This document shows positions 34,401-50,818 of a DNA stretch of 64,000 nt, piece by piece. The translations under genes were made by a program, and so were the position numbers. The notes under the pieces are model-generated. The model did no database searches. It saw nothing but the letters and a program-made list of their open reading frames with translations, and had not been told where the DNA came from. Source of the stretch: Pseudaquabacterium terrae (GTDB lineage Bacteria > Pseudomonadota > Gammaproteobacteria > Burkholderiales > Burkholderiaceae_C); NCBI RefSeq assembly GCF_013266755.1, contig NZ_JABRWJ010000010.1:124001-188000 (forward strand), read 5' to 3'. The stretch's first letter is position 1. Each line of letters opens with the position of its first letter.

Positions 34401-35990
34401 CAGCTGGTCCTGCAGCCGGCTCTGCTCGGTGATGTCGCGGGCGCTGGCGAAGATGCCGCGCACGGTGCCGGCCTGGTCCTTGAAGATCGCGGCATTGAAC
34501 GACACCAGCTGCTCGCGCCCGTCCTGGCTGCGCAGCACCAGCTGGTAGTTGGTGACGGCGCCCTTGTCGAAGGTCAGCCGCACGCCGTCGGCGGCCTGGC
34601 GCGCATCGGTGAAGTACTGCGGGAACGGCGAGCCGACCAGCTCGGCGCGGCTGTAGCCGGCCATGCGGCACATGGTCTCGTTGACGTCGGTGATCACCAG
34701 CATCGGGTCGACGGTGATCAGCCCGTCGAGCGAAGCCTCGATCAGGCCGCGGTTGTAGGTGCGCTCGTCGCCGAGCTGGCTCTGCAGCCGCGCCTGCTCG
34801 GTGATGTCGCGGGCGCTGGCGAAGATGCCGCCGACCTCGCCGGCCTCGTTGCGGAACACCGAGGCGTTGAACGAGACGGCCAGCTGCGCGCCGCTGCGCA
34901 TCGCCAGCGTCAGCACGTAGTCGGTGACGACACCCTTGTCGAAGGTCTCGCGCACCCCGGCGAGCGCACGCTCGGCGTCGACGAAATAGTCGACGAAGGG
35001 GGTGCCGATCAGCTCCTCGCGCGCATAGCCGCTCATCTGGCACATGCGGGCGTTGACGTCGCTGATGGTGCCCGACGGATCGACCGTGATCAGCCCGTCG
35101 ACCGAGGCCTCGATCAGCCCGCGGTTGTACGACTGCGATTCGCGCAGCTGCTCTTCCAGCTGCTTCTGCTCGGTGATGTCGCGCGCGGCGGCGAACACGC
35201 CCTGCAGCTTGCCCTCGGCGTCCTTGAAGGTCGAGGCGTTGTACGACACCAGCGTGCGGCGGCCGTCCTTGGCGCGCGCGGTGAGCTCGTAGTTGGTGAC
35301 CTTGCCTTCGCGCAGCACCAGCTTGATGCCTTCCTCGGCGCGCTGCGGGTCGGTGAAGCAGCCCTTGAACGGCGTGCCGATCAGCTCCTCGCGGGTGCGA
35401 CCGGTGAGTGCCTCCATCTGCTGGTTGACGTCGGTGATCACGCCGACGGAGTCGGTGGTCATCAGCGCGTCGATGTTCGATTCGATCAGCGAGCGGGTGT
35501 AGAACTGCGTCGCCTTGAGCTGCTCGGTGAGGCGGATCTCGTCGGAGATGTCCTTCGAGATCAGCAGGTAGCCCACCGCCTTGCCGGCGGCGTCGCGCCG
35601 CGGCGTGATGACCACGCGGGCAATGAAGCGCTCGCCGTTCTTGCGCAGCCGGCCGATCGTGCCTTCCCACTTGCCGGCGCCGAGCGCCACGTCGAGGATC
35701 TGGCGCGGCTGGTTCGCCGCCACGTCCTCGGGCAGGTGCAGGATGTTCGAGTTGGCCTTGCCGACGACCTCCTCGGGCTCGTAGCCGTAGAGGCGCCGCG
35801 CGCCCTCGTTCCACAGCAGGATCTTGCCGTCGAGGTCCTTGCCGATCACCGAGTACTCGGTCGACGACTCGAGGATGTTGCCGATGAAGTCGAGCGCTTC
35901 CTGCGCGTTGCCGACGATCGCGTTGTCGAACAGCTTGGTGCGGTGCGGGGCTTCGTTGCCGCGCAGCTCGTGTGAGGGCCTGTCGGACAT
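31446..35990 (-). CDS. giant sensor histidine kinase with ten PAS domains
   Basis: A 1514-residue soluble kinase. A divergent first PAS (residues about 30 to 150) is followed by nine PAS units of exactly 124 residues each (165 to 1280), then HisKA with [19 protein letters not shown] near 1315 and HATPase_c to the end ([31 protein letters not shown]). Each unit carries a GLIE or SLIE start, a DVN turn and ends in ARDIT. The ATG at 35990 follows GGGAG by 5 bases. No membrane helices or signal peptide are seen. It lies 53 bases after a REC-GGDEF gene and 7 bases before the double receiver. Ligand is unknown; such arrays may lengthen or tune signal passing. Confidence 0.93.
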   Translation of the reverse strand: MSDRPSHELRGNEAPHRTKLFDNAIVGNAQEALDFIGNILESSTEYSVIGKDLDGKILLWNEGARRLYGYEPEEVVGKANSNILHLPEDVAANQPRQILDVALGAGKWEGTIGRLRKNGERFIARVVITPRRDAAGKAVGYLLISKDISDEIRLTEQLKATQFYTRSLIESNIDALMTTDSVGVITDVNQQMEALTGRTREELIGTPFKGCFTDPQRAEEGIKLVLREGKVTNYELTARAKDGRRTLVSYNASTFKDAEGKLQGVFAAARDITEQKQLEEQLRESQSYNRGLIEASVDGLITVDPSGTISDVNARMCQMSGYAREELIGTPFVDYFVDAERALAGVRETFDKGVVTDYVLTLAMRSGAQLAVSFNASVFRNEAGEVGGIFASARDITEQARLQSQLGDERTYNRGLIEASLDGLITVDPMLVITDVNETMCRMAGYSRAELVGSPFPQYFTDARQAADGVRLTFDKGAVTNYQLVLRSQDGREQLVSFNAAIFKDQAGTVRGIFASARDITEQSRLQDQLAEERAYNRGLIEASVDGLVTVDEAMIVTDVNDTMCRMAGRKRDQLIGSPFAAYFTERERAENGVRLTFREGAVTNYVLTLQAADGRQVPVSFNAAVFKDVAGKVRGIFASARDITAQQQLEMQLQSSQFYTRSLIESNIDALMTTDSLGIISDVNEQMEALTGRSRAELIGTAFKDYFTDSKRAEEGIKRVLREGRVTNYELTARAKDGRETVVSYNAVTFNDAQGKLQGVFAAARDITEQKKLEEQLRQSQAYNRGLIEASVDGLVTVDPSGTISDVNDRMCQMTGYARGELVGTPFTDYFTEPLRARDGVAQTFDKGVVTEYALTLIARSRRLLQVSFNASVFKDEAGQVRGIFASARDVTDRVRLEEQMREQQTYLRGLIESSVDGLVTVDPEGFITDVNEQMCRMSGFARGELIGSQFKKYFTEAERADLGVKRTLADGIVTNYELTLRHKGGRKATVSFNASVFRAADGMLQGIFASARDISDQARLQNQLNEQQAYNRSLIEASADALFAIAPDGVITDVNEAATRLTGYSRKHLVNSRFAEYFTAPAQAGAGVEQTMRDSRVLGYELVLITRQGRRIAVSFNAGVFTDAASAPLGILAAARDITDQKALEQQLRDQQFYSRSLIESNVDALMTTDPVGVISDVNQQMEALTGCTREELIGTPFKDYFTDPGLAEEGIKLVLRESKVTNYELTARAKGGTETVVSYNATTFYDREGKLQGVFAAARDITERKRFELTLQEKNLELESASQSKDRFLSSMSHELRTPLNAIIGFTGTLLMKLAGPLNADQDKQLRTVQGSARHLLSLINDLLDLTKIESGKVELKLEPVVWAEVLDEVAATLRPLAQQKGLVFELRLPAQPLSLRTDRRTLSQIAINLIGNAIKFTETGGVTVELLQIGDGAQACTEVRITDTGIGIKPEDADRLFQAFSQLDSGSMRRHEGTGLGLHLSQKLAQLIGGRITLHSEFGRGSCFTLRIPA
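32151..35498 (-). repeat. nine tandem 372-bp PAS-coding repeats
   Basis: Nine units of exactly 372 bases without insertions or deletions: the unit start TRSLIESN at 35498 recurs as SRSLIESN at 32522, eight units later. Subtypes are ordered A-B-C-C'-A-B-D-E-A, where A units read SLIESNxDALMTTD and B units read VDPSGTISDVN. The order suggests an older four-unit block that was itself duplicated. This is coding repeat DNA inside the kinase gene and not a CRISPR or satellite. Confidence 0.9.
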
Positions 35991-36043
35991 GGTTGCTCCC
36001 TGACCGGGACGGTTGCCCGGCATCGAATGATGCGCCTGTGAAG

Positions 36044-37492: not shown

Positions 37493-39541
37493 GTGGCACA
37501 CGGACTCGGCGATTGGAAGCGGTGGGTCCTGTGGGGTGCGGGGCTGGCCCTGGTCATCGCGCTGCTCGCCGGCGTGCTGCGCCAGGCCGCGCAGGAGCAG
37601 CTCGAGCGCGACACGCGGCACTCGGCGCTGAACTGGGCGCACCTGGCCGGATCGACGGTGCCCGACCTGGAGGCGTTGTTCGAAGGCCGCGGCGTCAGTC
37701 CCGGTGCGCGCCAGCAGCTCGAACGGCTGCGCCACGCGTCGCAGGTGTTCCGCTTCAAGCTGTTCGATCGCCGGGGCATCCTGCTGCTGGTGTCCGACGA
37801 GCTCGATCGCGACGCCGCCAGCGGCGGCCCAGCGGCGGCAGGGCCCAGGCCGGACGCCTACTCGGCGCCGGCGGCTGCGCTGGCCGGCAGCAGCCTGATC
37901 GTCTTGAAGCGCGAGCAGCGGCCGGATCGGCCCGCGGTGTACAGCGAAGCCTACGTGCCGCTGCTGCGCGACGGCCGCGTGCTCGGCATCGTCGAGGTCT
38001 ACGTCGATCAGGTGGCGCAGGCGGCCAGCATCGAGCGGGCCTTCGCGCGCGTGGCCGGCGCGGTGGCCGCGCTGCTGTCGCTGCTGGTGGCGCTGGCCGG
38101 GTGGCAGCTCTGGTGCCGCGGCCGGCAGCAGCGTGCGGCCGAGGCACGCATGCGTTATCTGGCACATCACGACGTGCTGAGCGGCGTGATGAACCGCACC
38201 AGCTTTCACGAGGCCCTGCGCCAGGCCAGCTGGCGCCATGGCGAGGGCGGGCCCGGCTTCGCGCTGCTGTGCATCGACCTCGATCACTTCAAGGACGTCA
38301 ACGACTCGCTCGGCCACGCCGCCGGCGACGAGGTGCTGCGCCAGGCCGCGCAGCGCCTGGGCGATGCGGTGCGCCACGGCGACCACGTGGCCCGGCTGGG
38401 CGGCGACGAGTTCGCGGTGCTGCAGACGGGGGTGGCCGGCGCGGCCGACGTCACGACGCTGGCCGAGCGCATCGTGCAGGCGCTGGCCGCGCCCTACGAG
38501 GCCGGCGGCGCGCAGGTGCACTGCAGCGGCAGTGTCGGCGCGGCGATCCATGGGGTCGACGCCACCGGGCTGAAGGACCTGCTGCACAAGGCCGACCTGG
38601 CGCTGTACCGCGCCAAGTCCACCGGCCGCAGCACGTTCAGCTTCTACGACGCGACGATGGACGAGCAGCTGCAGGACCGGCGCATGCTGACGCGCGAGCT
38701 GCGCGACGCCATCGCCGGCAACCAGTTGACGCTGGCCTACCAGCCGCTGCATGCGGCCAACGGCCTGACCTTGACCGGCTACGAGGCGCTGCTGCGCTGG
38801 CAGCACCCGAGCCGCGGCGCCGTGGGGCCGGCCGAGTTCATTCCGCTGGCCGAGGACAGCGGGCTGATCGACGCGCTCGGGCGCTGGGTGCTGCGGCGCG
38901 CGTGCGCCGACGCCGCCGGCTGGCCCGAGCCGCTGAGCGTGGCGGTGAACCTGTCGGCCGCGCAGTTCGGCCGCGGCGAGCTGGTGGCGGTGGTCAGCGC
39001 CGCGCTCGCCGATGCCGGCCTGGCGCCTCATCGGCTGGAGCTGGAGATCACCGAGTCGCTGCTGATGAGCAACACCGAGCAGACCCTGGGCACGCTGCAG
39101 GTGCTGTCGGCGATGGGCATCGCCATCGCGATGGACGACTTCGGCACCGGCTATTCGAGCCTGGCCTACCTGTGGCGCTTTCCGTTCGACAAGGTCAAGA
39201 TCGACCGCGCTTTCACGCAGAACCTCGGCAGTGATCCGAAGGTGAGCCTGATCGTGCACTCGATCATTTCGCTGGCGCATTCGCTGAACATCCGCGTCAA
39301 CGCCGAAGGCGTGGAAACGCCGGCCCAGATGGCCGCGCTGCAGGCCCACGGCTGCGACGAGCTGCAGGGTTTCCTGCTCGGACACCCGCGCCCGCTGGCG
39401 GCACTCGCGCCCCGGCCCGCGGTCTTGCCGCCGCGGCAGGCGCCACGGCGCGGTGCCGCCGGGCATTCGATCTGGGACACGCCGCCGACCGTGCCGCTGC
39501 CGCCGGCGGTCCGGCCCACGCGCCCGGCACCGCTGGGCTGA
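37493..39541 (+). CDS. membrane-bound GGDEF-EAL protein
   Basis: A 682-residue protein from the GTG at 37493 (AGGAG 9 bases before). Two membrane helices (about residues 12 to 30 and 178 to 200) frame a periplasmic domain of about 145 residues with no family I recognise. A GGDEF domain with intact RLGGDEFAVL and an RxxD inhibitory site (RHGD) follows. The EAL domain keeps GYEALLRW, NLSAAQF, EITESLLMSN, MDDFGTGYSSL and NAEGVETP. Both activities are possible. The C-terminus is a Pro/Arg-rich tail of about 50 residues. It converges with the GGDEF gene at 39570, 28 bases away. Confidence 0.9.
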   Translation: MAHGLGDWKRWVLWGAGLALVIALLAGVLRQAAQEQLERDTRHSALNWAHLAGSTVPDLEALFEGRGVSPGARQQLERLRHASQVFRFKLFDRRGILLLVSDELDRDAASGGPAAAGPRPDAYSAPAAALAGSSLIVLKREQRPDRPAVYSEAYVPLLRDGRVLGIVEVYVDQVAQAASIERAFARVAGAVAALLSLLVALAGWQLWCRGRQQRAAEARMRYLAHHDVLSGVMNRTSFHEALRQASWRHGEGGPGFALLCIDLDHFKDVNDSLGHAAGDEVLRQAAQRLGDAVRHGDHVARLGGDEFAVLQTGVAGAADVTTLAERIVQALAAPYEAGGAQVHCSGSVGAAIHGVDATGLKDLLHKADLALYRAKSTGRSTFSFYDATMDEQLQDRRMLTRELRDAIAGNQLTLAYQPLHAANGLTLTGYEALLRWQHPSRGAVGPAEFIPLAEDSGLIDALGRWVLRRACADAAGWPEPLSVAVNLSAAQFGRGELVAVVSAALADAGLAPHRLELEITESLLMSNTEQTLGTLQVLSAMGIAIAMDDFGTGYSSLAYLWRFPFDKVKIDRAFTQNLGSDPKVSLIVHSIISLAHSLNIRVNAEGVETPAQMAALQAHGCDELQGFLLGHPRPLAALAPRPAVLPPRQAPRRGAAGHSIWDTPPTVPLPPAVRPTRPAPLG

Positions 39542-39569
39542 TCGGCGGGTCAGCGGCCGCGTCGATCGA

Positions 39570-42323
39570 TCACGCCAGCGCAGTGCTGCCGCGCCCGATG
39601 CCTTGGTCCGGCGCCGGCGATGCTGCATTCGCGGCCGTCGCGACCCGGTTGCGTCCGGCGGCCTTGGCGCGGTAGAGCGCCTGGTCTGCCCGGGCCAGCA
39701 GCGTCTGCGGCGTGTCGGCGGCGCCGGGCAGGGGCTGCGCGGCCAGCGTGGCCACGCCCAGGCTCACGGTCACGCACGCGGCCGTCTCCGAGGCCCCATG
39801 CGGCAGCGCGAGCGCAGCGACAGCGGCGCGAATCCGCTCGGCCACCAGCGCGGCCGCCGCGGCGTCGGTGTTCGGCAGGACGACGGCGAATTCCTCGCCG
39901 CCGTAGCGCGCCGCCAGGTCGCCGACACGGCCCACCGCGGTGGCGATCGCCCGCGCCACCTGGCGCAGGCAGTCGTCGCCGGCCTGGTGGCCATGGCGGT
40001 CGTTGTAGCGCTTGAAGTGGTCGATGTCGGCCATCACCAACGACAAGGGCGGGCCACTGCGTTGGGCGCGCTGGCACTCGCGCGCCAGCACCTCGTCGAA
40101 GACGCGCCGGTTCGCGATGCCGGTCAGCCCGTCCACCGAGGCCAGCTCGCGCAGCCGCGCTTCGAGGCGGTGGCGCTCGGTGCTGTCGCTGAAGACGGCC
40201 GCGTAGTGGCTGACCCGCCCGTCGGCGTCGCGCAGCAGGCTGATCGAGGTCTGCTGCGGATAGACCTCGCCGCTGCGACGGCGATTCCAGATCTCGCCGT
40301 GCCAGTGGCCGGTGGTATCTGCCGCCTCGCGGATGCGCCGGAAGAATTCGTCGTCGTGGCGGCCCGAGAACAGCAGCCGCGGCGTCCGCCCCAACGACTC
40401 GGCCGGCGAGAAGCCGGTGATGTGCCCGAACGCCGGGTTGATCGATTCGATGCGCAACTCGGCGTCGAGGACCATCACGCCTTCGGCGGCGCTGGTGATC
40501 ACGGCGGCGGCAACGGCATTCGATTCGCCCAGCGCGCGCAGCGCTTCATGGCTGTCCTGCATCGCCCGCTGGGACGCGACGATGCGCTCGGCCATGCGGT
40601 TGAACGAACGCGCCAGCCCGTCGAGCTCGGAAACACCGGACGCGGCACCGGCGCGGGCCGATGCATCACCTTCGCCCAGCCGTGTCGCCGCGGCGGACAG
40701 CTCGCGCACCGGCCGGTAGATCGAACGCGCCAGCTTCAGGCCCAGCAGCACGGCCGCGCCGGCCATCGTTGCCGCGACAGTCGCGACGAAGCCGAACAGG
40801 CGATGCATCGGCTCGAGCACCTCGCGCGCGGGCACCGCGTGCACCAGCGTCCAGTCGGCGAACCGGTTGTCGCCGAACGGTCCGAGGCGGGCATAGCTGC
40901 TGAGCAGGCGTTCGGGCGGCAGCGGAGAGGTTCCGGCGTGGGCGAGCGGCAGATCGAACGAGCCGCGCTGCGCCGTCGCCGTGCGCAGCGCGGCCGCCAG
41001 CGGGTGGACCGTCTCGCGCGTCACGTCGGGGTCCACGCTGGCGACGATGCGGCCCTGGCCATCGAGCAGGTAGGCGTACTCGTCGCCGTCGCCGTCGCCG
41101 CTGCCCTCGCCGACGTCGGCGATGCGCTGCAGCAGGTGGCGGCGGTCGAGCGTGGCGACCAGCACCGCGAACGAGCGCCCGGCGCCGTCGGCCGCGCCGC
41201 TCAGTGCATGCAGCGCACTTTCGCTGCGCTGGACGTCGATGAACAGCGCATCCGGCGGCTCGTCCTGCGCCTGGCGGCGCAAGGCCTCGAGGGCCGCGTC
41301 GTGCAGCTGCGCGAACCGCCGGCCGCGATTCTCGGGCCGCGTGGTCGCGACGATCACGCCGTCGCGGTCCACCAGCTCGAAGGAGGCCAGCATCGGCAGG
41401 TAGTTCAGCGTCTCGCGGAAATGCGCCTCGAGCTCCGGCACGCTCGCCTTGTGCAGCACCGGGTTGACACTCAGCACGCGCAGGCTGTTTGCGAAGGTGT
41501 TCACCAGCTCGTCGAGGTGCTTCGCCGCCAGCACCACCTTGCCCTCGACCTCGCGCACCGCGTTGGCGGTGGCCGCCTGGCGCATCTGCAGGTAGGTGAT
41601 GGACAGCGTCACCGCCAGCGATGGCAGCGTCAACGCCAGCAGCGCCAGCGACAGGCGCCGGCGCAGCGACAGCTGCAGCGCGACGCTGCTCCAGGGCTCG
41701 ACGCGCCAGTCGAGCCACAGCGCGAGCGCCAGCAGCACGAAGCCGCTGGCGGTGGGCAGCGCGACCTGCGACAGGAAGTAGAAGTCGAGCGTGCCGGGCA
41801 GCCCGAGCAGGTAGCCGATCAGCGCGAGCAGGCCGAGTGCGCCCAGCATCGCGGCGAGCGTGCCCACGCCGAGCCGGTGCAGTGCGGTGCGTGCCCGCGG
41901 CACGACGAGGAAGATGCTGCCGGCGAGCACCATGCCGAGCGCGGTCGCGCGCGAGGGACGCCCGGGAAACGGATTGCGGCCGGGATCGATCAGCCAGGTG
42001 TGCAGCGCGCGACCATCGATGCCGAAGTCGGCGCCGAAGCCGTATTCCGCCAGCACCAGCAGCCCGAGCGCGGCGAGGGCGACGCCGGCGGCTGTCTTGA
42101 CCGTGCGCCGCCACGCGGGCAGCCCCACGCCGGCCAGCAGCGCCAGTCCGGCCACTGTGAACCCCAGCGCGGTGTCGAACACCATCAGGAAGCCGGGCAC
42201 CAGGCGCACCAGCTGGGGCTGCCGCAGCAGCCAGCCGGCCATCGTGAACAGGCCGAACAGTGCGAGCAGCGCGCCGAGCACGGCGACGCTGCGGCGGGCG
42301 AAGGGGGCAGACAGGGTGGTCAT
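39570..42323 (-). CDS. membrane diguanylate cyclase with periplasmic sensor, HAMP and PAS
   Basis: A 917-residue protein, the last gene of the Kai operon. The N-terminal 250 residues contain about seven hydrophobic helices. A periplasmic Cache-like domain (about 255 to 490), another helix (about 500 to 525), HAMP, PAS (about 610 to 720) and GGDEF follow. The cyclase motif RYGGEEFAVVL is intact, with an RxxD inhibitory site (RVGD) five residues before it, so it should make c-di-GMP under product inhibition. The ATG at 42323 overlaps the HD-GYP stop in an ATGA, which ties synthesis of c-di-GMP to its breakdown and to KaiBC in one message. Confidence 0.9.
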   Translation of the reverse strand: MTTLSAPFARRSVAVLGALLALFGLFTMAGWLLRQPQLVRLVPGFLMVFDTALGFTVAGLALLAGVGLPAWRRTVKTAAGVALAALGLLVLAEYGFGADFGIDGRALHTWLIDPGRNPFPGRPSRATALGMVLAGSIFLVVPRARTALHRLGVGTLAAMLGALGLLALIGYLLGLPGTLDFYFLSQVALPTASGFVLLALALWLDWRVEPWSSVALQLSLRRRLSLALLALTLPSLAVTLSITYLQMRQAATANAVREVEGKVVLAAKHLDELVNTFANSLRVLSVNPVLHKASVPELEAHFRETLNYLPMLASFELVDRDGVIVATTRPENRGRRFAQLHDAALEALRRQAQDEPPDALFIDVQRSESALHALSGAADGAGRSFAVLVATLDRRHLLQRIADVGEGSGDGDGDEYAYLLDGQGRIVASVDPDVTRETVHPLAAALRTATAQRGSFDLPLAHAGTSPLPPERLLSSYARLGPFGDNRFADWTLVHAVPAREVLEPMHRLFGFVATVAATMAGAAVLLGLKLARSIYRPVRELSAAATRLGEGDASARAGAASGVSELDGLARSFNRMAERIVASQRAMQDSHEALRALGESNAVAAAVITSAAEGVMVLDAELRIESINPAFGHITGFSPAESLGRTPRLLFSGRHDDEFFRRIREAADTTGHWHGEIWNRRRSGEVYPQQTSISLLRDADGRVSHYAAVFSDSTERHRLEARLRELASVDGLTGIANRRVFDEVLARECQRAQRSGPPLSLVMADIDHFKRYNDRHGHQAGDDCLRQVARAIATAVGRVGDLAARYGGEEFAVVLPNTDAAAAALVAERIRAAVAALALPHGASETAACVTVSLGVATLAAQPLPGAADTPQTLLARADQALYRAKAAGRNRVATAANAASPAPDQGIGRGSTALA

Positions 42324-44446
42324 GACTTGTCCCAGCTGAAGCCGTGGGTCCGGAAGACGCGCAGGCAGGCGTCCACCGCTTGCGGGTCGAGCCACGAACC
42401 GCGCCGGGCCTCGACCTCCGCCAATGCCGCTTCGATGCCCAGGCCGGCGCGGTAGGGCCGGTGCGAGGACATCGCCTCGACCATGTCGGCCACCGCGAGG
42501 ATGCGTGCCTCGAGCGCGATGGCGTCGCCCTTCAGGCCCTGCGGGTAGCCGCTGCCGTCGATGCGCTCGTGGTGCTGGTGCACCATCTCGGCCACCGGCC
42601 ACGGAAAGCGGATGTCCTTGACGATCTCGTAGCCGGCCTGGGCGTGGGTCTTGATCAGCTCGAACTCGAGCTTCGACAGCCGCGTCGGCTTGGACAGCAG
42701 CTCCGCCGGCACCTGCACCTTGCCCAGGTCGTGGATCAGCGCGCCGAAGTGGATGCCTTCGACCGCCGGCTCGGCCAGGCCCATCTCGCGCGCGATCGCC
42801 GCCGCCAGCGCGGCCACGCGCCGCTGGTGCCCGGCGGTGTACGGGTCGCGCATCTCCACCGTCGCGGCGATCGCGTCGATGGTCGAGACCAGTGCCGCAT
42901 GCAGCGTTTCCTGGGCACGACGGCGCTCGGCGATGTCGATGCGCTGCGCCGCGCGGGCGCGCAGGTTCGAGACGCCGTAGGCCAGGTTGGCCGCCAGCTC
43001 CTCCAGCAGCTGCACCTCGGCGGCATCGAACGATTCGTCGTCGGCGGCGGCGATGACCACCGCGGCGAGCGGTCGCTCGCCGGCCGCCAGCCGCAGCGGC
43101 AGTGCGAGCAGGCCGGGCCAGTGCTGGAAGACGCGCGGCCCGCACGGGGGACCCTGCACGGCCTCGCCGGCGCGCATCAGCTGCGTCCGGCCGAGCCGCA
43201 GCGCGCGCGCCAGCCCGTGCTGGCCGTGCGCGTCGTCGCGCCATGTCAGCGGGCCGGCGGCGAGCGCGGCGGGGTCGATGCCGGTGCAGCCGCGCGGCTC
43301 GATCGAGCACGGCGCATCGTCGAGCGCATAGCCGACGAAGGCCATCGGGTAGCCGCCGATATCGCACAGGATGCGCGTCATCTGCGCGATCAGCCCGTCC
43401 TCGTCGGCGGCCCGCACCAGCGCTTCGTTGCCGGCGCTCAGCGTCCGCAGCGCACGGTTGGCGCGTTCGATCGCGTGCTGGCGCGCCAGCCGCTCCGAGA
43501 TGTCGCGGACGAACCCGGCCGCGCACCACCGCCCGTGCAGCCGGACCGCCGAGATCGCCAGCTCGACCGGCAGCTCCTCGCCGCCCTTGCGCAGGGCGTG
43601 CATCTCGACCACGTGGCCGATCACCGCGCCGCCGCCGTCGCCGACGAAGCGGGCGAAGCCGCCGGCGAAGGCGTCGTAGTAGCGCGCCGGCACCACGAGC
43701 CGGTGCAGTTCCGCGCCGACCGCTTCTTCGGCGGTGTAGCCGAGCATGCGCTCGGCCGAGGCATTCCAGAACGTGATCCGGCCGGTGCCGTCCATCAGGA
43801 TCACCGCATCCATCGTCGCGCCCGTGATCGCCTGGAAGGTCTGCTCGCCGGCGCGCAGCGACTGCTCCACGCGCAGCTGGTCCTCGAGCAGGCTCAGCAG
43901 CGCCCGCCGCGAGCGTTCGGACTGCTCGAGCTGCGACCGCGCCAGCGCGCCGCGCTCGCGCTCGCGCAGGTCGGACACCACCAGGGCGACCCGGCCTTCG
44001 GTGCCGCCGAGCGGCGTGGCCGTCACCAGCGCCGGCCGGCCGCTGCCGTCGCCGCCGGCGAGGTCGATCTGCTGCGGCACGCCGGCCGCGGCGTCCGGCC
44101 GCAGCAGCGCGTCCAGCGCCGCGCGATCGCAGGCGACGGCCATCTCGCGCGCCAGCGTGCCGATCACCGTCTTCAGCGGGCGCTCCAGCAGGCGCGCGAG
44201 CGCCTCGTTGGCATACAGCAGGCAGCCCGACGCATCGACCGTGGCGGCGCCTTCGTGCATCGCTTCGACGAAGGCGCGGTACGGCGTTTCCGCGCCCTCC
44301 AGCGTGAACACGTTGTGCGCGCCCGGCGCGCCGGTCACCAGCGCGTCGACGCTGCCGCTGCGCAGCGCGGCCAGCACCGCCTCGGCCTCGTCGAGCCGCT
44401 CGCGCAGCGCCGCGTTCTCGCTCACCAGGTCGGGCTCGGCACGCAT
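42320..44446 (-). CDS. PAS-PAS-GAF-HD-GYP c-di-GMP phosphodiesterase
   Basis: A 708-residue soluble protein. After a short N-terminal coiled coil (LRERLDEAEAVLAALRSG) come two PAS domains (about 53 to 165 and 200 to 320), a GAF domain (about 335 to 480) and a C-terminal HD-GYP domain. HD-GYP signatures are intact: GHQRRVAALAAAIA, IHDLGKVQVP, the HH of MVHQHHERIDGSGYPQGL and ILAVADMVEAMSSHRPYR. It should cleave c-di-GMP. It starts 4 bases after the second kaiB stop and overlaps the GGDEF gene, so it is the link between KaiBC and c-di-GMP. Confidence 0.93.
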   Translation of the reverse strand: MRAEPDLVSENAALRERLDEAEAVLAALRSGSVDALVTGAPGAHNVFTLEGAETPYRAFVEAMHEGAATVDASGCLLYANEALARLLERPLKTVIGTLAREMAVACDRAALDALLRPDAAAGVPQQIDLAGGDGSGRPALVTATPLGGTEGRVALVVSDLRERERGALARSQLEQSERSRRALLSLLEDQLRVEQSLRAGEQTFQAITGATMDAVILMDGTGRITFWNASAERMLGYTAEEAVGAELHRLVVPARYYDAFAGGFARFVGDGGGAVIGHVVEMHALRKGGEELPVELAISAVRLHGRWCAAGFVRDISERLARQHAIERANRALRTLSAGNEALVRAADEDGLIAQMTRILCDIGGYPMAFVGYALDDAPCSIEPRGCTGIDPAALAAGPLTWRDDAHGQHGLARALRLGRTQLMRAGEAVQGPPCGPRVFQHWPGLLALPLRLAAGERPLAAVVIAAADDESFDAAEVQLLEELAANLAYGVSNLRARAAQRIDIAERRRAQETLHAALVSTIDAIAATVEMRDPYTAGHQRRVAALAAAIAREMGLAEPAVEGIHFGALIHDLGKVQVPAELLSKPTRLSKLEFELIKTHAQAGYEIVKDIRFPWPVAEMVHQHHERIDGSGYPQGLKGDAIALEARILAVADMVEAMSSHRPYRAGLGIEAALAEVEARRGSWLDPQAVDACLRVFRTHGFSWDKS

Positions 44447-44450
44447 CGCT

Positions 44451-44789
44451 TCAGCGGCTGCGGATGTCGAGCGCGGCGAACAGACGCACGCGGTCGGACA
44501 GGTCGCCGATCAGGCGGCGCACCGGCGGCGGCGCGTCCTTGACGAGCGTCGGCGCGGCGAGGATGCGGCCCTGCAGCGCGAGCAGCGGCTCCTGGTAGAC
44601 ATCGATCACCTCCAGCTCGTAGCGCCCGGCCAGGTGCTGCTCGCACGCCGCGCGCAGGTTGGCGATGGCGTGCGCCGAACGCTCGGTGGCGCCGGTGACG
44701 TACAGGCGCAGCACATAAGCGGCCGCCGCATCGTCCTCGAGCGCGTGCTCGAAGGCCTGCGTCGCCGTCGGTTCGAGACGATCGCTCAT
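44451..44789 (-). CDS. kaiB: KaiB-family protein, second copy
   Basis: A 112-residue KaiB-fold protein with an N-terminal extension of about 25 residues. Core motifs [52 protein letters not shown] and [12 protein letters not shown] follow KaiB. KaiB binds the KaiC CI ring during the clock cycle. This copy is the more divergent of the two: the conserved [14 protein letters not shown] stretch has become LALQGRIL. It overlaps the first kaiB in an ATGA and precedes the HD-GYP gene by 4 bases. It may bind KaiC differently or hand its state to the HD-GYP protein (inference). Confidence 0.9.
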
Positions 44790-45133
44790 GATGCCGTCCC
44801 TTGCGAGGGCAGGGCGGCCAGCGGTACCAGCTTCAGGCCCACCAGGGCCTTCTCGGTATCCGACAGGTCGCCGACCACCTTGCGCAGCGGCGGCGGCAGC
44901 TTGCACACCACCGTGGGCATCGCCAGGATGCCGTCCTCGTCGGCGCGCTGCGGGTCGGCCTTCAGGTCGATCACCTCGATGCGGTAGCGCCCGCGCAGGT
45001 GCTGCTCGGCGATGCGCTTGAGGTTGGCGAAGGCGGTCATCGAGCGCGCGGTCTGGCCGGCGACGTACAGGCGCAGCTCCCACACCTCGCCGGCGGCAGC
45101 GACGGCGGGGCCGGCGATGGCGGGCGCGTTCAT
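44786..45133 (-). CDS. kaiB: KaiB-family protein, first copy
   Basis: A 115-residue KaiB homologue. Motifs [33 protein letters not shown] and [21 protein letters not shown] closely track cyanobacterial KaiB. It starts in an ATGA overlap with kaiC, so the two are translated together. It is the likely canonical KaiC partner, while the next gene is a second, more divergent KaiB. KaiB in other species switches fold to bind KaiC; whether this one does cannot be read from sequence. Confidence 0.93.
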
Positions 45134-46845
45134 GCGCGCTCCCCGGCGGCCGCTTCGTCCTTGCGCAGCGTGGCCCGGGCCGAGCGGTCGGTCTCCAGCA
45201 GCACCTCGCTGCGCTCGGCCTGCGCGATCAGCGTCTCGGCCTCGAGCATCTCGGCGGCCGATTCGGCGCGCAGCATCAGGATCCGGGCCTCGACCACCTC
45301 GCGCCGGCGCTCGATGTCGCGCCGGCGGGCCTGCACCTCCTGGGCCCGCACCAGCGTCTCGGCCTTCTCGGTGCTTTCCTGCACCTGGCGCGCCGTGCCC
45401 GTGAGCACGCCGGCGGTGCCGAGGTAGACATCGCGCAGCTCGATGCCGCGGTCGGTCAGCAGGAACTCGCGCATCTGGTTCGAGTGCGCCATGCCGCGCG
45501 ACTTCAGCAGGTAGAGCAGGCGGTTGCGCTCGCCGTTGCTCTCCACGTCGCGCAGCAGCAGCCAGGTGTCGGCCAGCGACGAGATGTGGGTGTCGGTGGC
45601 TTCCAGCGTATTGCCGGCGTGGTTCAGGCTGGTGAACAGCGCGGTGATCTGCAGGCTCTTCAGGAAGTCGATCAGGCGCGTCAGCATCGCCCGCACTTCG
45701 AGCGCCGAGCCGATGGTGGTCAGGTTCGATATCGGGTCGATCACCACCACCTGCGGGTGGAAGCGGTTGACGGCGCGGTGGATGGTCGCCAGGTGCAGCT
45801 CGAGCCCGCAGGCGGTGGAGCGCGACGGCAGGATCTGCAGCTTGCCGCCGTCGACCCACGGTTGCAGGTCGATGCCGATGGAGCGCATGTTGCGCACGAT
45901 CTGCGCCGGCGATTCCTCGAGCGCCAGGTACAGGCAGCGCTCGCCGCGGCGGCAGGCGGCGTCGACGAAGCTCGCCGCCAGGCTCGACTTGCCGGTGCCG
46001 GCGGTGCCGGACACCAGGATGCTGCTGCCGCGGTAGTAGCCGCCGCCGCCGAGCAGCGCATCGAGCCGGTGCACGCCGCTGGGCACGCGCTCGGACGACA
46101 CCGCATGCGTGAGGTTCAGCGAGGTGATCGGCAGCACGGAGATGCCGTCGGCGTCGATCAGGAACGGGTACTCGTCGGGTCCGTGCACCGAGCCGCGGTA
46201 CTTGACGACGCGCACCCGCCGCGTCGCGATCTGGTCGACGATGCGGTGGTCGAGCACGATCACGCAGTCGGCCACGTACTCCTCCAGGCCATGCCGGGTG
46301 TAGGTGCGGTCGCCGCGCTCGCCGGTGATCACCGCGGTCAGGCCGCGGGCCTTGAGCCACCTGAACAGGCGCTGCAGCTCGGCGCGCAGGATGGTCTCGT
46401 TGGGAAAGCTGCCGAACAAGGTCTCGATGGTGTCGAGCACGATGCGCCGGGCCCCCACCGAGTCGATCGCGTTGCCGAGCTGGATGAACAGGCCCTCCAG
46501 GTCGTAGTCGCCGGCCACCTCGATCTCGCTGCGGTCGAGCTGGATGTGCTTGATCGCCATGCGCCCGCTCGCCACCAGCGCATCGAGGTCCACGCCGAGC
46601 GAGGCGACGTTGCGGGTCAGCTCCGGCGGCGTTTCCTCGAAGGTGACGAAGACGCCGGGTTCGTTGCAGTCGAGGGCGCCGCGGATCAGGAACTCCATGC
46701 CGAGCAGCGTCTTGCCGCAGCCGGCACCGCCGCAGACCAGTGTCGGACGGCCCCGCGGCAGGCCGCCGGCGGTGATCTCGTCCAGGCCCGGGATGCCGGT
46801 GGGGCACTTCTCGATGCCGGTGGTCATGCCTGCTGCTCGGTCCAT
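45130..46845 (-). CDS. kaiC: KaiC-family clock ATPase/kinase
   Basis: A 571-residue protein with two RecA-like halves. CI (about 10 to 250) has Walker A GGAGCGKT and catalytic [13 protein letters not shown] (about 255 to 480) has Walker A GTAGTGKS and ALEESPAQI. The phosphosite region reads [11 protein letters not shown]: the two sites match cyanobacterial S431/T432 as Ser-Ser, and the helper Thr is kept. The last about 90 residues form a long charged coiled coil in place of the short KaiA-binding tail, as known for KaiA-independent KaiC of Rhodobacter type. No kaiA is present. The ATG at 46845 follows GGAG by 7 bases. A RadA/ordinary RecA role is ruled out by the two-domain KaiC layout and kaiB linkage. 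Confidence 0.95.
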
Positions 46846-46869
46846 CGTCTGCTCCGTTCGTTTCGGGTG

Positions 46870-48228
46870 TTAGTCGGCGCTCGGATAGGGCGCCGGGTGT
46901 TCGAGTTGCCGCGCGAGCGTGTTGACCTCGCGCTTGAGTGCCAGCACGCGTTCTTCGCGGTCGAGCGTCAGCTGCTGCCAGCGCTGCAGCTCGTCGAGCT
47001 GCGCGCGCAGCGTCGCCTCGGCCTCGTGGCGGGCGGTGGCGTCGCGCACCGAGCCGAGCAGGCAGGGCCTGTCGCCGAGCAGGATCGGAGATCCCGTGAT
47101 GTCGACGACGACGGCGCTGCCGTCCGACTTGCGCAGCGGCAGGCCGGCCCGGAAGTGCAGCTCGCCGCGGGCGCCGCGGTCGAACTCCCCGAGCACCTGC
47201 TCGAGCGCCGCGGGGTCGATGAACGTGGCGATGGGCAGGCCGTGCAGCTGGCCGGGGCCGTACCCGAGCAGGCGCTCCATGCTGCCGTTGACCAGCGTCA
47301 CGCGCCGCGTGGCGACGTCCATCACGGCGATGCCGTCGGTGGTGTGCTCGAAGATGGCCTGGAACGTCGCCTGCGACTGGCGCAACGCCTGCTCGCCGTC
47401 GCGCGCGGCGCGCAGGGACATCACCAGCGCGATCTTGTCCGCGAGGCGCTCGGCGAACTCGACCTCGTCGGGCCTCCACCGCCGCGACGGATCGGCAGGC
47501 ACGAGGCTTAGCAGCCCGACGCGCGCGTCGCCGACAGTGACCGCCGCATGCAGCGCGCCGGCGGCGTCGAAGGCCGCGTCGCGCGTGGGCTCGCCGCCGG
47601 CGTGCCGGCCGGTCGCGGCGTCGTAGTCGTCGATGCAGCGCAGCGGCGGTGCGCCGGAGCCGGCGAGCTCGACACGGGCCCTCACGGCAGCGGTGACGCG
47701 CGCCGCCACCTCGGTGACGTGCCGTACCACGCGTTCCACTTCGCCTTCATGCGCCGCGGCGGCGGCCGCGATGTCCTGCATCGCGCGCGCCTGATCGGCC
47801 GCCCGGTGGCGCACGGTGACGTCCTCGAACAGCAGCAGCACCTGGCCGTCGCCCGCCTCTCCGACCGGCTCGGCACGGACCAGGAAGAATTCGCCGTTGT
47901 CCAGGCACAGGTTGCTGTCGGGCCTGCGGGCGCTGCCGGGTTCGCCGCCGACCGCTCCGCCCTCGAGCGGCGCCTCGCGCTTCGGAAAGCAGTTCCAGTA
48001 GGGCCGCCCGATGAGGTCACCGGCCGGCGCACCGGCCCGCACGGCATAGGCACGGTTGCAACGCAGCACGCGCTGCTGGCGGTCGTGCACCACCAGCGGC
48101 ATCGCGACCGCGTCGGCCATCTTCAGCCAGTCGCGCTGCGCCTGCGCAAGCGCACGGTGGGTTCGCTGCAGCGTTTCACGCAAGCGCGCGAGTGCAGGCT
48201 CGGGAGAGCGGACAGCCGGATGGTCCAT
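46870..48228 (-). CDS. PAS-GAF-PAS sensor protein without output domain, first gene of Kai operon
   Basis: A 452-residue soluble protein: PAS (about 38 to 150), GAF-like (about 165 to 290), PAS (about 300 to 420) and a C-terminal coiled coil ([19 protein letters not shown]). No kinase, GGDEF or EAL domain follows, so output must go through protein contact. It ends 24 bases before kaiC. The ATG at 48228 gives MDHPAV; a longer start would read into the promoter region. It may feed an environmental cue into KaiC or form an adaptor with the HD-GYP protein. In other bacteria this place in kai operons is often held by a PAS histidine kinase. Confidence 0.82.
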
Positions 48229-48262
48229 GCCGGCCAGTCTGAGGCGCGCGCCGCGCTGCACG

Positions 48263-48276
48263 TTGACGAGCCTCAA
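48263..48276. promoter_or_regulatory. TTG-N8-CAA site before the Kai operon
   Basis: TTGAC-GAGC-CTCAA matches eight of ten positions to the FNR consensus. It is centred only 41 bases before the ATG at 48228, which would place a class II start almost at the ATG, so the true start codon or role may differ. Weak site. Confidence 0.35.
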
Positions 48277-48310
48277 GTCACGCCCGCGTCGCGCGCGCCG
48301 TCGGTGCTGC

Positions 48311-48326
48311 CGTGACATTGCTCACG
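48311..48326. promoter_or_regulatory. CRP-like palindrome CGTGA-N6-TCACG
   Basis: A perfect five-base inverted repeat with six-base spacer, close to the CRP consensus TGTGA-N6-TCACA, in the divergent region between the Kai operon and the degenerate EAL gene. A second pair, CGTG-N7-CACG, lies at 48341-48355. Which gene it serves is unclear. Confidence 0.4.
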
Positions 48327-48379
48327 CGCAGCCATCGCAACGTGCAGATGTCACGGCTGGCCGCGCCGCGGCCGCGCAA

Positions 48380-48393
48380 CTGATGCAGATCAA
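48380..48393. promoter_or_regulatory. FNR-like box before the degenerate EAL gene
   Basis: CTGAT-GCAG-ATCAA, nine of ten to FNR consensus, centred about 65 bases before the ATG at 48452. It shares the 12-base core TGATGCAGATCA with the site at 37264-37277. Confidence 0.55.
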
Positions 48394-48451
48394 CCCCGCG
48401 CCGGGTTGAGCGAGAACACTGCGCGGCATCGGCAGCACCTGAGGTCAAACG

Positions 48452-50818
48452 ATGGAAACGACGGACGTACAGCAGCGATCGCCCAAGGCGCACTCTCGCG
48501 ACTCGATTGCGCTCGCGACCATCCTCGATCGGCTCGGCCCGAACGTGAGCGTGCAGCTGCTGATGGCCGACGGCACGCTGCTCCATGCCAACCAGGCCTC
48601 GCTCGACGCGGTGGGCACGACGCTGACCGACGTGATCGGCCTGCCGTTCCACGCGACGCCGTGGTGGCCCGTCAACCCGCACGAGCGCCAGCGGCTGCAG
48701 GCCGCGATGGAGGACGGGCTGCACGGCAAGCCGAGCCGCTTCGAGGTGCACCTGCAGCGTGCCGACGGGCGGATGACGACGGCGGACTTCACGCTCAATC
48801 CGGTGTTCGACGGCGCGGGCAAGGTGGCCTTCCTGGTGCCCTCGGCCTGCGACACGAGCGGGCGGCATGCCGAACGCGAGCGCATTTCCTTCCTTGCCGA
48901 GCATGATGCGCTGACCGGACTTCCCAACGCGCATCGGATGCGGCAACTGCTGCCGCAGGTGATCGCCGACGCCCGGCAGCTCGGCAGGCGCCCGGCGTTG
49001 CTGTGCATCGGCATGGACCACTTCAACCGCATCAACACCGCGCTGGGCCTGCCGGCCGGGGACGAGGTGCTGCGCACGATGGGCACGCGCATCGCGGCCT
49101 GCCTGGAGCCCGGCGACCTGCTGGCGCGCGGCAATGGCGACGAGTTCATCGTCGCGCTGGCGGCCCCGGCGGCACCCGACGAAGCCTGCGAGCAGCTGGT
49201 GCTGCTGCTGCAGGACACGATCGCCGCGCCGATCGTCGTGGAGGGTCGCGAGGTGGTGGTGACCGCCGGCATCGGCCTGGCCAGCGCCGATGCCGACAGG
49301 GCCGACCCCGACCTGCTGATGCGGCACGCCGGCATCGCGCTGGAGCAGGCGCAGCGCAGCGGCTGCGGCCGCAGCGCGACCTACGGGCGCGACCGGCTGG
49401 ATGCCGATCCGGACCACCTCGCGCTCGCAGCGGCGTTGCGGCACGCGATCGAGCGCGATCAGCTGCACCTGGTCTACCAGCCGCAGGCCGACCTGGTGAC
49501 CGGGCGCATCGTCGGCGTCGAGGCCTTGCTGCGCTGGCAGCATCCGCAATTCGGCCTGGTGCCGCCCGAGCGCTTCCTGCCGATCGCCGAGGAGACCGGC
49601 CTCGGCGCGGCGATCGGCGACTGGGTGATCCGCAGCGCGTGCCGCAAGGCGGCCGCGTGGCAGCAGCCGGGCTGGCCCGGCGTGCGCATCAGCGTGAACG
49701 TCTCGGCAGCCCAACTGCAGCAGGCCGACTTCGTCGAGGGCATCGAGCGCCGGCTGCGCGAAGCCGGCCTGCAGCCGCGCCGCTTCGGCCTGGAGATCAG
49801 CGAGAACCAGCTGATGGCGCGGCCGGACCAGGCAGCGGCACGGCTGCGCCGGCTGCGCGCGCTGGGCGTCGAGGTCGCGCTGGGCAATTTCGGCACCGGC
49901 CACTCCAGCCTCGCCTGCCTGCGCAGCCTGCCGCTGGACGTGGTGAAGATCGACCGTTCGCTGATCCCGGGCATCACCGCCGGCGCCGGGGCGCTGTCGA
50001 TCACGCGCGCCATCCTGGCGATGGCCCACTGCCTGGGCATGAAGGTCGTCGCCGAGGGCGTCGAGAGTGCAGGGCAGCTGGAGCTGCTGGCGGCCAACCA
50101 CTGCGACCGCGTGCAGGGCCACTTCGTCGGCGCGCCGGTGGCCGCAGGCGCCATCGACGACCTGCTGCGGGTGGGCCGCGCGTTGCTGGAGCCGCGGCGC
50201 AGGCATGCGCCGGTGCGCACCCTGCTGGTGGCCATCGACGATCCGGTGATGCTCGAGCGCATCCAGCGCCAGGTGCTGCTGCGCTTCGAGGAGCAGCTGC
50301 GGGTGGACACCTGCCGCAGCGGCCCTGATGCGCTGGAACGCCTGCGCGCCGGCCCGGTCGACGTGCTCCTGGCTGCCGGCAACCTGCCGGTCCTGGACGG
50401 CGGCACGCTGCTCAAGCTGGTCAAGGTGTTGCAGCCGAACACGGTGCGCATGATGGTGCTGGACGCGGCCGAGCTGGCCGCCGTGGCCGACGATCCGCGC
50501 CAGCAGGACGTGTTCCGCTACCTGTCGCGCGGCGGCGTCCTGGACCACCTGCTGCAGCACCTGAAGGCGGCGCTGGACCTGACCGACCGGCAGCGTGCGC
50601 TGCGCATCCTGGACATCGCGGTGGACGGCGCTCCCTATCAGCCAACGCCGGTGGAGCGCGAGCTGCGGCGCCTGGAGGAGCTGGAGCCCGGCCTGACCGC
50701 CATGCAGCACGGGCCGGACGGCGAGCTGCTGATGCCGCAGACGCTGCCGACGATGCCCGGCGACCTCTGGACCTCGGCTGCGGCGAGCTTGCCCGCGCCT
50801 TCGGTCCTGCGGCGCTGA
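48452..50818 (+). CDS. degenerate PAS-GGDEF-EAL-receiver protein, probable c-di-GMP sensor/effector
   Basis: A 788-residue soluble protein: PAS (about 25 to 135), GGDEF-like (about 145 to 305), EAL-like (about 320 to 570) and a receiver-like end (about 590 to 720). The cyclase motif reads GNGDEF with the first Gly lost. The EAL motif itself remains (GVEALLRW), but the metal-binding pair in DDFGTGYS has become GNFGTGHS, so hydrolysis is unlikely. In the receiver-like part the phospho-Asp place reads VLLAAGNLPVLDGG with no Asp. All enzymatic outputs look disabled, which suggests ligand binding and protein contact. It is divergent from the Kai operon and directly precedes the sigma factor and pilus genes. 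Confidence 0.88.
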   Translation: METTDVQQRSPKAHSRDSIALATILDRLGPNVSVQLLMADGTLLHANQASLDAVGTTLTDVIGLPFHATPWWPVNPHERQRLQAAMEDGLHGKPSRFEVHLQRADGRMTTADFTLNPVFDGAGKVAFLVPSACDTSGRHAERERISFLAEHDALTGLPNAHRMRQLLPQVIADARQLGRRPALLCIGMDHFNRINTALGLPAGDEVLRTMGTRIAACLEPGDLLARGNGDEFIVALAAPAAPDEACEQLVLLLQDTIAAPIVVEGREVVVTAGIGLASADADRADPDLLMRHAGIALEQAQRSGCGRSATYGRDRLDADPDHLALAAALRHAIERDQLHLVYQPQADLVTGRIVGVEALLRWQHPQFGLVPPERFLPIAEETGLGAAIGDWVIRSACRKAAAWQQPGWPGVRISVNVSAAQLQQADFVEGIERRLREAGLQPRRFGLEISENQLMARPDQAAARLRRLRALGVEVALGNFGTGHSSLACLRSLPLDVVKIDRSLIPGITAGAGALSITRAILAMAHCLGMKVVAEGVESAGQLELLAANHCDRVQGHFVGAPVAAGAIDDLLRVGRALLEPRRRHAPVRTLLVAIDDPVMLERIQRQVLLRFEEQLRVDTCRSGPDALERLRAGPVDVLLAAGNLPVLDGGTLLKLVKVLQPNTVRMMVLDAAELAAVADDPRQQDVFRYLSRGGVLDHLLQHLKAALDLTDRQRALRILDIAVDGAPYQPTPVERELRRLEELEPGLTAMQHGPDGELLMPQTLPTMPGDLWTSAAASLPAPSVLRR

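Follow-up and report, generated by a model that had tools for sequence, protein, structure and literature searches.

The genome of Pseudaquabacterium terrae (8.04 Mb) carries a kai operon in which the gene directly behind two kaiB genes encodes an HD-GYP protein, a predicted phosphodiesterase of cyclic diguanosine monophosphate (c-di-GMP), and the gene after it a GGDEF protein, a predicted diguanylate cyclase. The operon consists of six minus-strand genes at positions 39570–48228 of the window, by which we mean the whole 64,000-nt stretch analysed, and it is a variant of the widespread kaiC-kaiB(-kaiB)-sensor-kinase cassette. The best explanation, which we regard as an evenly balanced proposition, is a KaiBC timer or energy-state sensor with an HD-GYP output in place of the usual histidine kinase. 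A connection of kai genes to c-di-GMP is no novelty on its own. GGDEF/EAL genes next to kaiBC had been described in 2011, when the Ramlibacter paper placed a histidine kinase or GGDEF/EAL gene immediately downstream of kaiC/kaiB in almost all kaiC-kaiB clusters outside cyanobacteria (PMC3164672). The new part is the HD-GYP form together with an adaptor module shared with other kai operons; no paper title in the open-licence literature searched named an HD-GYP kai operon or the module.

The first gene (46870..48228) encodes a PAS-(GAF)-PAS protein without recognised output domain (Pfam PAS_4 and PAS), whose GAF domain is only probable at 21.6 bits against a Pfam cut-off of 22.4. After a 24-base gap comes kaiC (45130..46845), which meets the first kaiB of a tandem (kaiB1, 44786..45133) in an ATGA overlap; kaiB1 overlaps kaiB2 (44451..44789) in the same way, and 4 bases separate kaiB2 from the HD-GYP gene (42320..44446), with the predicted architecture PAS-PAS-GAF-HD-GYP (Pfam PAS, PAS, GAF_2 and HD_5, the last at an E-value of 6.5e-39). 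Another ATGA overlap leads to the last gene (39570..42323), for a membrane Cache-HAMP-PAS-GGDEF protein with GGDEF at 8.5e-50, HAMP at 1.7e-11 and a weak Cache (dCache_1, 27.1 bits against a Pfam cut-off of 45). An initial annotation made from the letters alone had described six co-directional genes with gaps of at most 24 bases or ATGA overlaps; its coordinates and junctions are correct, its domain calls agree with Pfam save for the GAF of the first gene and the Cache of the last, and the physical coupling that it saw between KaiC, two KaiBs and two opposing c-di-GMP enzymes is borne out. Its interpretation as a whole is partly supported, with KaiC control of c-di-GMP, a timing role and co-transcription remaining proposals. 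A consensus scan of 39400–48600 found no promoter- or terminator-like sites (0.2 and 1.5 expected from shuffles), which carries little weight because the genome is GC-rich.

Judged from its sequence, the 571-aa KaiC (Pfam KaiC, 2.5e-111) is of the Rhodobacter (KaiC2) type. Residues 9–557, including most of the tail, align to the Rhodobacter KaiC structure 8dba (E 3.3e-198), the nearest solved relative and a KaiBC hourglass protein, and identity to the Cereibacter sphaeroides KaiC is 59.4% over 508 aa. Both ATPase domains have a Walker A motif and the catalytic Glu pair, the phosphosites are Ser-Ser, and the C-terminal extension of KaiC2 proteins (about 50 residues forming a coiled coil) is present. 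One study defines the KaiC2 subgroup by two serines and a longer C-terminal tail, and describes KaiBC alone in Rhodobacter sphaeroides as an hourglass set by ATP/ADP with KaiA-independent KaiC autophosphorylation (PMC10076222). That hourglass counts in favour of an energy or stress sensor instead of a clock, in which KaiBC would report ATP/ADP or stress and tune c-di-GMP without daily timing, as does the lack of KaiA among the six operon proteins, the genome at large not having been searched for it. The Legionella kai operon, too, is reportedly tied to the stress response. We put the chances of such a sensor just short of even; all that sets it apart from our best explanation is the use made of the timer.

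Both KaiBs (PF07689, 6.5e-22 for KaiB1 and 1.7e-21 for KaiB2) lie well above the Pfam cut-off of 27 bits, at 77.5 and 76.2 bits, and below the NCBIfam KaiB equivalog cut-offs. KaiB1 is 56.6% identical to the C. sphaeroides KaiB and scores 128.7 bits with our KB1 model against 99.7 with KB2; KaiB2 scores 115.3 bits with KB2 against 101.9 with KB1. Across 78 tandem pairs, a KaiB and its closest counterpart in another locus agreed in position in 155 of 156 cases, with mean identities of 69% among first KaiBs, 51% among second KaiBs and 48% between the two, so that by sequence KaiB1 (conserved, near the Rhodobacter KaiB) and KaiB2 (more variable) are two separate classes. A tie between KaiB class and effector was ruled out, as single-KaiB loci pair either class with either kind of effector. 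A search of the genome found these two KaiBs only, and three more double-domain KaiC-like genes besides the operon kaiC.

The catalytic motifs of both downstream enzymes are intact, as the initial annotation had read them: HDLGK and HHERIDGSGYP in the HD-GYP protein, matching both HD and HHExxDGxGYP, and RVGDLAARYGGEEF in the GGDEF protein, comprising the GG[DE]EF A-site and the RxxD I-site. Neither the HD-GYP protein nor the PAS protein upstream shows a HisKA or HATPase domain (Pfam, E 0.001). Oxygen sensing by the second PAS was considered and set aside: its partial NCBIfam matches to FixL and DosP lie far below their cut-offs, and, compared by eye with a FixL stretch, it seems to have a Phe in place of the haem histidine, a lead only.

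The genome holds 81 GGDEF and 12 HD_5 matches, and four GGDEF matches, including the operon's own and one degenerate, begin no more than about 12.5 kb from kai where 0.25 would be expected (Poisson P of about 1.4e-4), a proximity beyond chance. The region might be a signalling island that gathers signalling genes, with kai and c-di-GMP genes lacking any functional link; the six GGDEF matches that the window has from 22 to 49 kb, a ten-PAS kinase and the genome-wide total fit such a picture. We think it unlikely, given that each of the four junctions from kaiC through the GGDEF gene is an ATGA overlap or a 4-base gap, that other genera too have HD-GYP genes behind kaiB, and given the presence of the module at the HD-GYP N-terminus after kaiB elsewhere.

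The module behind kaiB

The N-terminal part of the HD-GYP protein (43952..44446), which we propose as a reader of the KaiBC state, is a module of about 110 residues comprising a helix, the motif RxGxVDALVV...VFTLxGAxxPYRxLxExMxEGA and a PAS fold. An AlphaFold2 model of 165 residues (66 rows) reached a mean predicted local distance difference test (pLDDT) score of 82.9, with a helix at 4–30, a confident PAS at 66–159 and a hairpin at 35–48 of low confidence (blocks at 57 and 48); the model of the full HD-GYP protein (8 rows) was poor, at a pLDDT of 58.7, and was not used. The matches in the Protein Data Bank listed as best for the module are PAS-containing proteins.

The module is kept after kaiB across many phyla. 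As tests of this linkage we count only the own-genome, family, order and plasmid searches, because the other kai loci were fetched via KaiC or KaiB; all module counts use a single-sequence model and alignment A2, an iterated model having also marked upstream PAS genes and possibly drifted to ordinary PAS domains. In the own genome, the HD-GYP gene is the one strong match, accompanied by one weak match (5.5e-4) over residues 49–156. The 299 genomes of the family gave 12 matches, 11 of them directly after kaiB at most 110 bases from the KaiB match, and the twelfth spanning positions 45–109 only. The 399 genomes of the order gave 20, of which 10 were directly after kaiB (at most 140 bases) and the other 10, beginning at positions 33 to 58, had no adjoining KaiB. 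Matches reaching the N-terminal part of the module (start at 8 or before) were thus directly after kaiB in 11 of 11 cases in the family and 10 of 10 in the order, in samples that overlap and both contain the window's genome.

Plasmids gave the same picture, with 12 of 72,556 records matching the module. The six that we opened all hold kaiC-kaiB(-kaiB)-sensor kinase and include C. sphaeroides 2.4.1 and KD131, the latter being the source of the characterised KaiBC hourglass; the other six are further C. sphaeroides records. The opened operons belong to Cereibacter, Rhizobium, Pararhizobium and Sinorhizobium, and two of the plasmids are typed conjugative. Plasmid-borne kai-kinase operons are a possible route for spread.

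Of the 299 genomes of the family, 18 have KaiB. Above the cut-off it was found in 18 of the 399 genomes of the order and in 28 of 369 of the class, numbers that rise to 21 and 33 at E 0.001; in the class, the 20 stretches with the stronger matches were opened. Among the best 80 matches of a named-genome scan, KaiCs 55–66% identical to that of the window occur in many phyla, including metagenome-assembled genomes (MAGs) titled as archaea. For the annotation of the neighbourhoods we made models from the domains found in the window, extended them with the fetched loci and put some of the doubtful cases to Pfam; two loci were left out (L177, which we equate with L135, and L211, which coincides with L142). 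This gave 127 distinct loci with kaiC then kaiB, 91 of which carry the module immediately behind the final kaiB. The module-bearing gene encodes a kinase in 66 (three recognised by Pfam only), HD-GYP in 8, GGDEF-EAL in 4, GGDEF in 1, and PAS only or a contig-cut product in 12. The contrast that the initial annotation drew with PAS histidine kinase operons holds, there being no kinase in the window's next gene. Such an arrangement, kaiC-kaiB-PAS kinase, is reported for Rhodopseudomonas palustris (PMC4794148), and in R. rubrum and R. sphaeroides kaiBC is reported to adjoin a PAS kinase (PMC10931921). By annotation, the full-length module matches of four further loci (L074, L163, L187 and L195) each come after a kaiB. 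One of these, L163 in a Methanoculleus MAG, has the rearranged order kaiB-kaiB-kinase-kaiC, and a Fibrobacteres MAG (L128) has two consecutive kaiC-kaiB-kinase units.

The characterised C. sphaeroides operon, kaiC-kaiB-HWE histidine kinase, resembles that of the window in KaiC type (Ser-Ser, long tail), KaiB and gene order, and its kinase begins with a module 40% identical to the window's over 125 aa. It differs in that its KaiB is single, a histidine kinase takes the place of the window's HD-GYP protein, and no GGDEF gene comes next. Also comparable are the kaiC-kaiB-GGDEF-EAL loci of the Ramlibacter paper, with c-di-GMP enzymes directly downstream of kaiBC, in a section that names GGDEF/EAL and not HD-GYP (PMC3164672). 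Unlike the window, GGDEF-EAL kai loci of our set (L071, L080–L082, L179 and L181–L183) mostly have a Ser-Thr KaiC, one KaiB and no module at threshold; in the mostly Ser-Thr KaiC group at large, the module is missing at threshold and the next gene is often GGDEF-EAL.

Recurrence and origin of the HD-GYP form

Other genera also have an HD-GYP gene behind kaiB. One is the genus Polynucleobacter, where a targeted search found KaiB in 6 of 186 genomes and all six carry kaiC, one or two kaiB genes and a module-HD-GYP gene (L142 and L206–L210). These loci share with the window the KaiC2 type and the module-HD-GYP protein directly after kaiB, and the HD-GYP part of the window protein is 57.7% identical to that of L142 over 196 aa. 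Their HD-GYP proteins are shorter than the window's, at 379–385 residues with PAS and HD only in L142; their GGDEF protein, unlike the window's, has no recognised sensor domain; and L142 and L208 lack the upstream PAS protein, the other loci being contig-cut near kaiC. In the L142 genome (2.6 Mb), two of five HD_5 matches and one of six GGDEF matches lie at the kai locus. Outside this genus, kaiC-kaiB(-kaiB)-HD-GYP is found in two more genomes, G364 and G403 (L168 and L173). In all, the module accompanies HD-GYP in eight loci (the window, L142, L168 and L206–L210), five of which came from the targeted search, and is missing from two HD-GYP loci, L173 and L198.

A lack of the order in relatives, which would have counted against the initial annotation, is not what we found: these genomes keep it as far as the HD-GYP gene. 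The order including the GGDEF gene occurs in L206 and L207, near-identical loci (KaiCs 99.8% identical) with a co-directional GGDEF gene after the HD-GYP gene. The arrangement is not kept in the window's own genus: four congeners have no KaiB match (G001, G003, G010 and G013), and a fifth (G005) has two other kaiB-kaiC arrangements (L086 and L087). In L142 and L208, the GGDEF gene is divergent and upstream.

A single origin of the form was weighed against repeated recruitment on two trees. On a KaiC tree of 123 rows, excluding 13 Bacteroidetes kinase rows and KaiCs below 430 residues, the HD-GYP label (9 rows) requires four changes, at least three of them forced by starred branches. A clade joining the KaiCs of the window, L142, L168, L206, L208 and L209 was, on a further thinned set of 67 rows, not rejected by the approximately unbiased test (p 0.468). 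Since the window is unreliably placed and this joint clade is not rejected, we claim no independent recruitment of HD-GYP for the window. On a tree of HD-GYP domains, those directly after kaiB fall, L198 excepted, into one 14-row set (support 100/99), which also holds G403 HD-GYPs from elsewhere in that genome (L223 and L225) and others not directly after kaiB; this tree, likewise, does not settle a single origin against repeated recruitment.

A possible output route from KaiBC to c-di-GMP

We think of the HD-GYP protein as a KaiBC reader because the module is constant behind kaiB and the effector variable, as in an output adaptor. By analogy with R. sphaeroides KaiBC, KaiC would phosphorylate itself on two serines, and binding of KaiB1 and KaiB2 would depend on phosphorylation and ATP/ADP. 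The N-terminal helix-hairpin-PAS module would then read the KaiBC state and switch the HD-GYP domain, and with it c-di-GMP breakdown, while the membrane cyclase may supply an opposing, environment-driven synthesis. From the observed gene order, domains, catalytic motifs, recurrence and module–kaiB linkage we infer module binding to KaiB or KaiC, the direction of signalling and an effect on c-di-GMP over time. More generally, and tentatively, since we doubt it somewhat more than we trust it, the module may be the general output adaptor of KaiC2-type timers, which would do without the cyanobacterial SasA route, with histidine kinase, GGDEF-EAL and HD-GYP as swapped effectors, so that here and in Polynucleobacter the timer would act directly on c-di-GMP. 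The cyanobacterial output kinase SasA is like the HD-GYP protein in its proposed role of reading KaiC state. According to a 2017 survey, SasA reads KaiC via a KaiB-like thioredoxin-fold domain, and non-cyanobacterial KaiC timers must use an output pathway unlike that of Synechococcus (PMC5520375). The window protein begins with helix-hairpin-PAS instead of a thioredoxin fold of the SasA type, and Pfam finds in it no KaiB domain.

Several observations weigh against a KaiBC output through the module. The pairing of HD-GYP with GGDEF is not fixed, because the window's GGDEF protein resembles that of L206 in its domain only (33.5% over 173 aa) and because L209 and L210 have no GGDEF gene in the 7–8 kb downstream, their upstream sides being contig-cut within or just beyond kaiC. 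At threshold the module is missing in 36 of the 127 kaiC-kaiB loci, where the next gene is GGDEF-EAL in 9, a kinase in 9, HD-GYP in 2 and PAS only in 2, with nothing recognised within 400 bases in 14. A c-di-GMP enzyme comes next in 11 of these 36, so that neighbourhoods of this kind do not depend on the module. The threshold does miss divergent modules, two kinase loci (L132 and L150) being counted as lacking one that looser models mark. In the linkage searches, no more than the top 15 candidates of each genome (family) or the top 11 (order) were scored, and the model had been trained on rows linked to kai. A point in favour of the output is that the distances of module and KaiC are correlated (r 0.54, n 88; as high in 0 of 2000 permutations); such a correlation is, however, expected of co-moved genes whether or not their products touch, and the kinase ATPase domain shows one with KaiC as well (0.61, the module reaching 0.70, n 58). 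Finally, two published readings point the other way: the histidine kinase beside kaiBC is treated as an oxygen/redox input sensor, not an output, in one paper (PMC10931921), and in another the link in Synechococcus elongatus runs from c-di-GMP to the clock (PMC13001216).

These two sources lead to the reverse flow, in which the HD-GYP protein would be an input device informing KaiC of redox, oxygen or c-di-GMP. Its PAS and GAF sensor domains suit that role, as does the oxygen/redox input discussed for the Rhodobacter PAS kinase adjoining kaiBC. In S. elongatus the period grew longer when c-di-GMP was lowered, with direct action of c-di-GMP on the Kai proteins not consistently seen in vitro (PMC13001216). 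Against this flow stand the intact HD-GYP and GGDEF motifs, by which the proteins are predicted to be able to act on c-di-GMP, and the occurrence of kinase, GGDEF-EAL and HD-GYP behind one constant module, the pattern expected of an output adaptor; we judge an input role improbable.

On the preferred reading of a KaiBC output, a module found after kaiB in many phyla, including the characterised C. sphaeroides system, is a concrete candidate for the output, and the HD-GYP form offers an enzymatic read-out, c-di-GMP breakdown, that is testable with purified proteins. c-di-GMP governs motility and biofilm decisions. Should the proposal hold, c-di-GMP, and hence these decisions, would in heterotrophic bacteria be set by a daily or energy-state timer.

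Other KaiC-like and c-di-GMP genes

The three other KaiC-like genes of the genome each have a GGDEF match within about 1.4 kb; the chance of this per locus is about 0.046 when the limit is put, after the fact, at 1.6 kb. One, without kaiB (contig C55; L238, 4301–7837), is directly followed by a gene for a GGDEF-HisKA-HATPase protein. The same pairing of KaiC with a GGDEF-histidine kinase occurs in four genomes of the genus (G001, G004, G016 and G017; L242, L244, L245 and L246) and at the second KaiC of L171 (13554–16851); it is absent beside the KaiC of G020 (L243). The GGDEF domain of these proteins is intact (GGDEF and I-site); a Pfam scan, which covered all but those of L245 and L171, found no HisKA in that of L246. 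The KaiCs, apart from that of L171, have Ala-Phe at the window's Ser-Ser positions. A kaiB-less KaiC with a GGDEF-histidine kinase is possibly a second kind of KaiC link to c-di-GMP. The remaining two KaiC-like genes (L239 on C55 and L240 on C1) adjoin GGDEF-EAL genes, a divergent REC-PAS-GGDEF-EAL and, upstream, CHASE-PAS-GAF-GGDEF-EAL and GGDEF-EAL, with a histidine kinase downstream.

Beside the operon, a divergent plus-strand gene (48452..50818) encodes PAS-GGDEF-EAL-REC by Pfam, with EALLR present and a degenerate GGDEF domain without the GG[DE]EF motif. It is 29.8% identical over 689 aa to a gene of the same architecture, also divergent from kaiC, in L078, a locus of the window's family with a close KaiC and the order divergent PAS-GGDEF-EAL-REC, kaiC, kaiB, module-PAS-PAS-GGDEF-EAL, PAS-GGDEF. 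The C-terminal tail of the PAS-(GAF)-PAS protein matches genes just upstream of kaiC in L068 (independent E-value 1.3e-11) and L188 (5.5e-8). This tail, GREERxxxLKREVNxLL...RYPSAD-like (window 46870–47028, L068 11562–12095, L188 11644–15195), is common to upstream PAS proteins of loci with different effectors, L068 being of the kinase type and L188 of the GGDEF-EAL type. Around the operon, a cluster of c-di-GMP genes at 22100–50818 holds six GGDEF matches within 27 kb, and a histidine kinase of 1529 aa with ten consecutive PAS domains (31446–36035) adjoins a REC-GGDEF gene.

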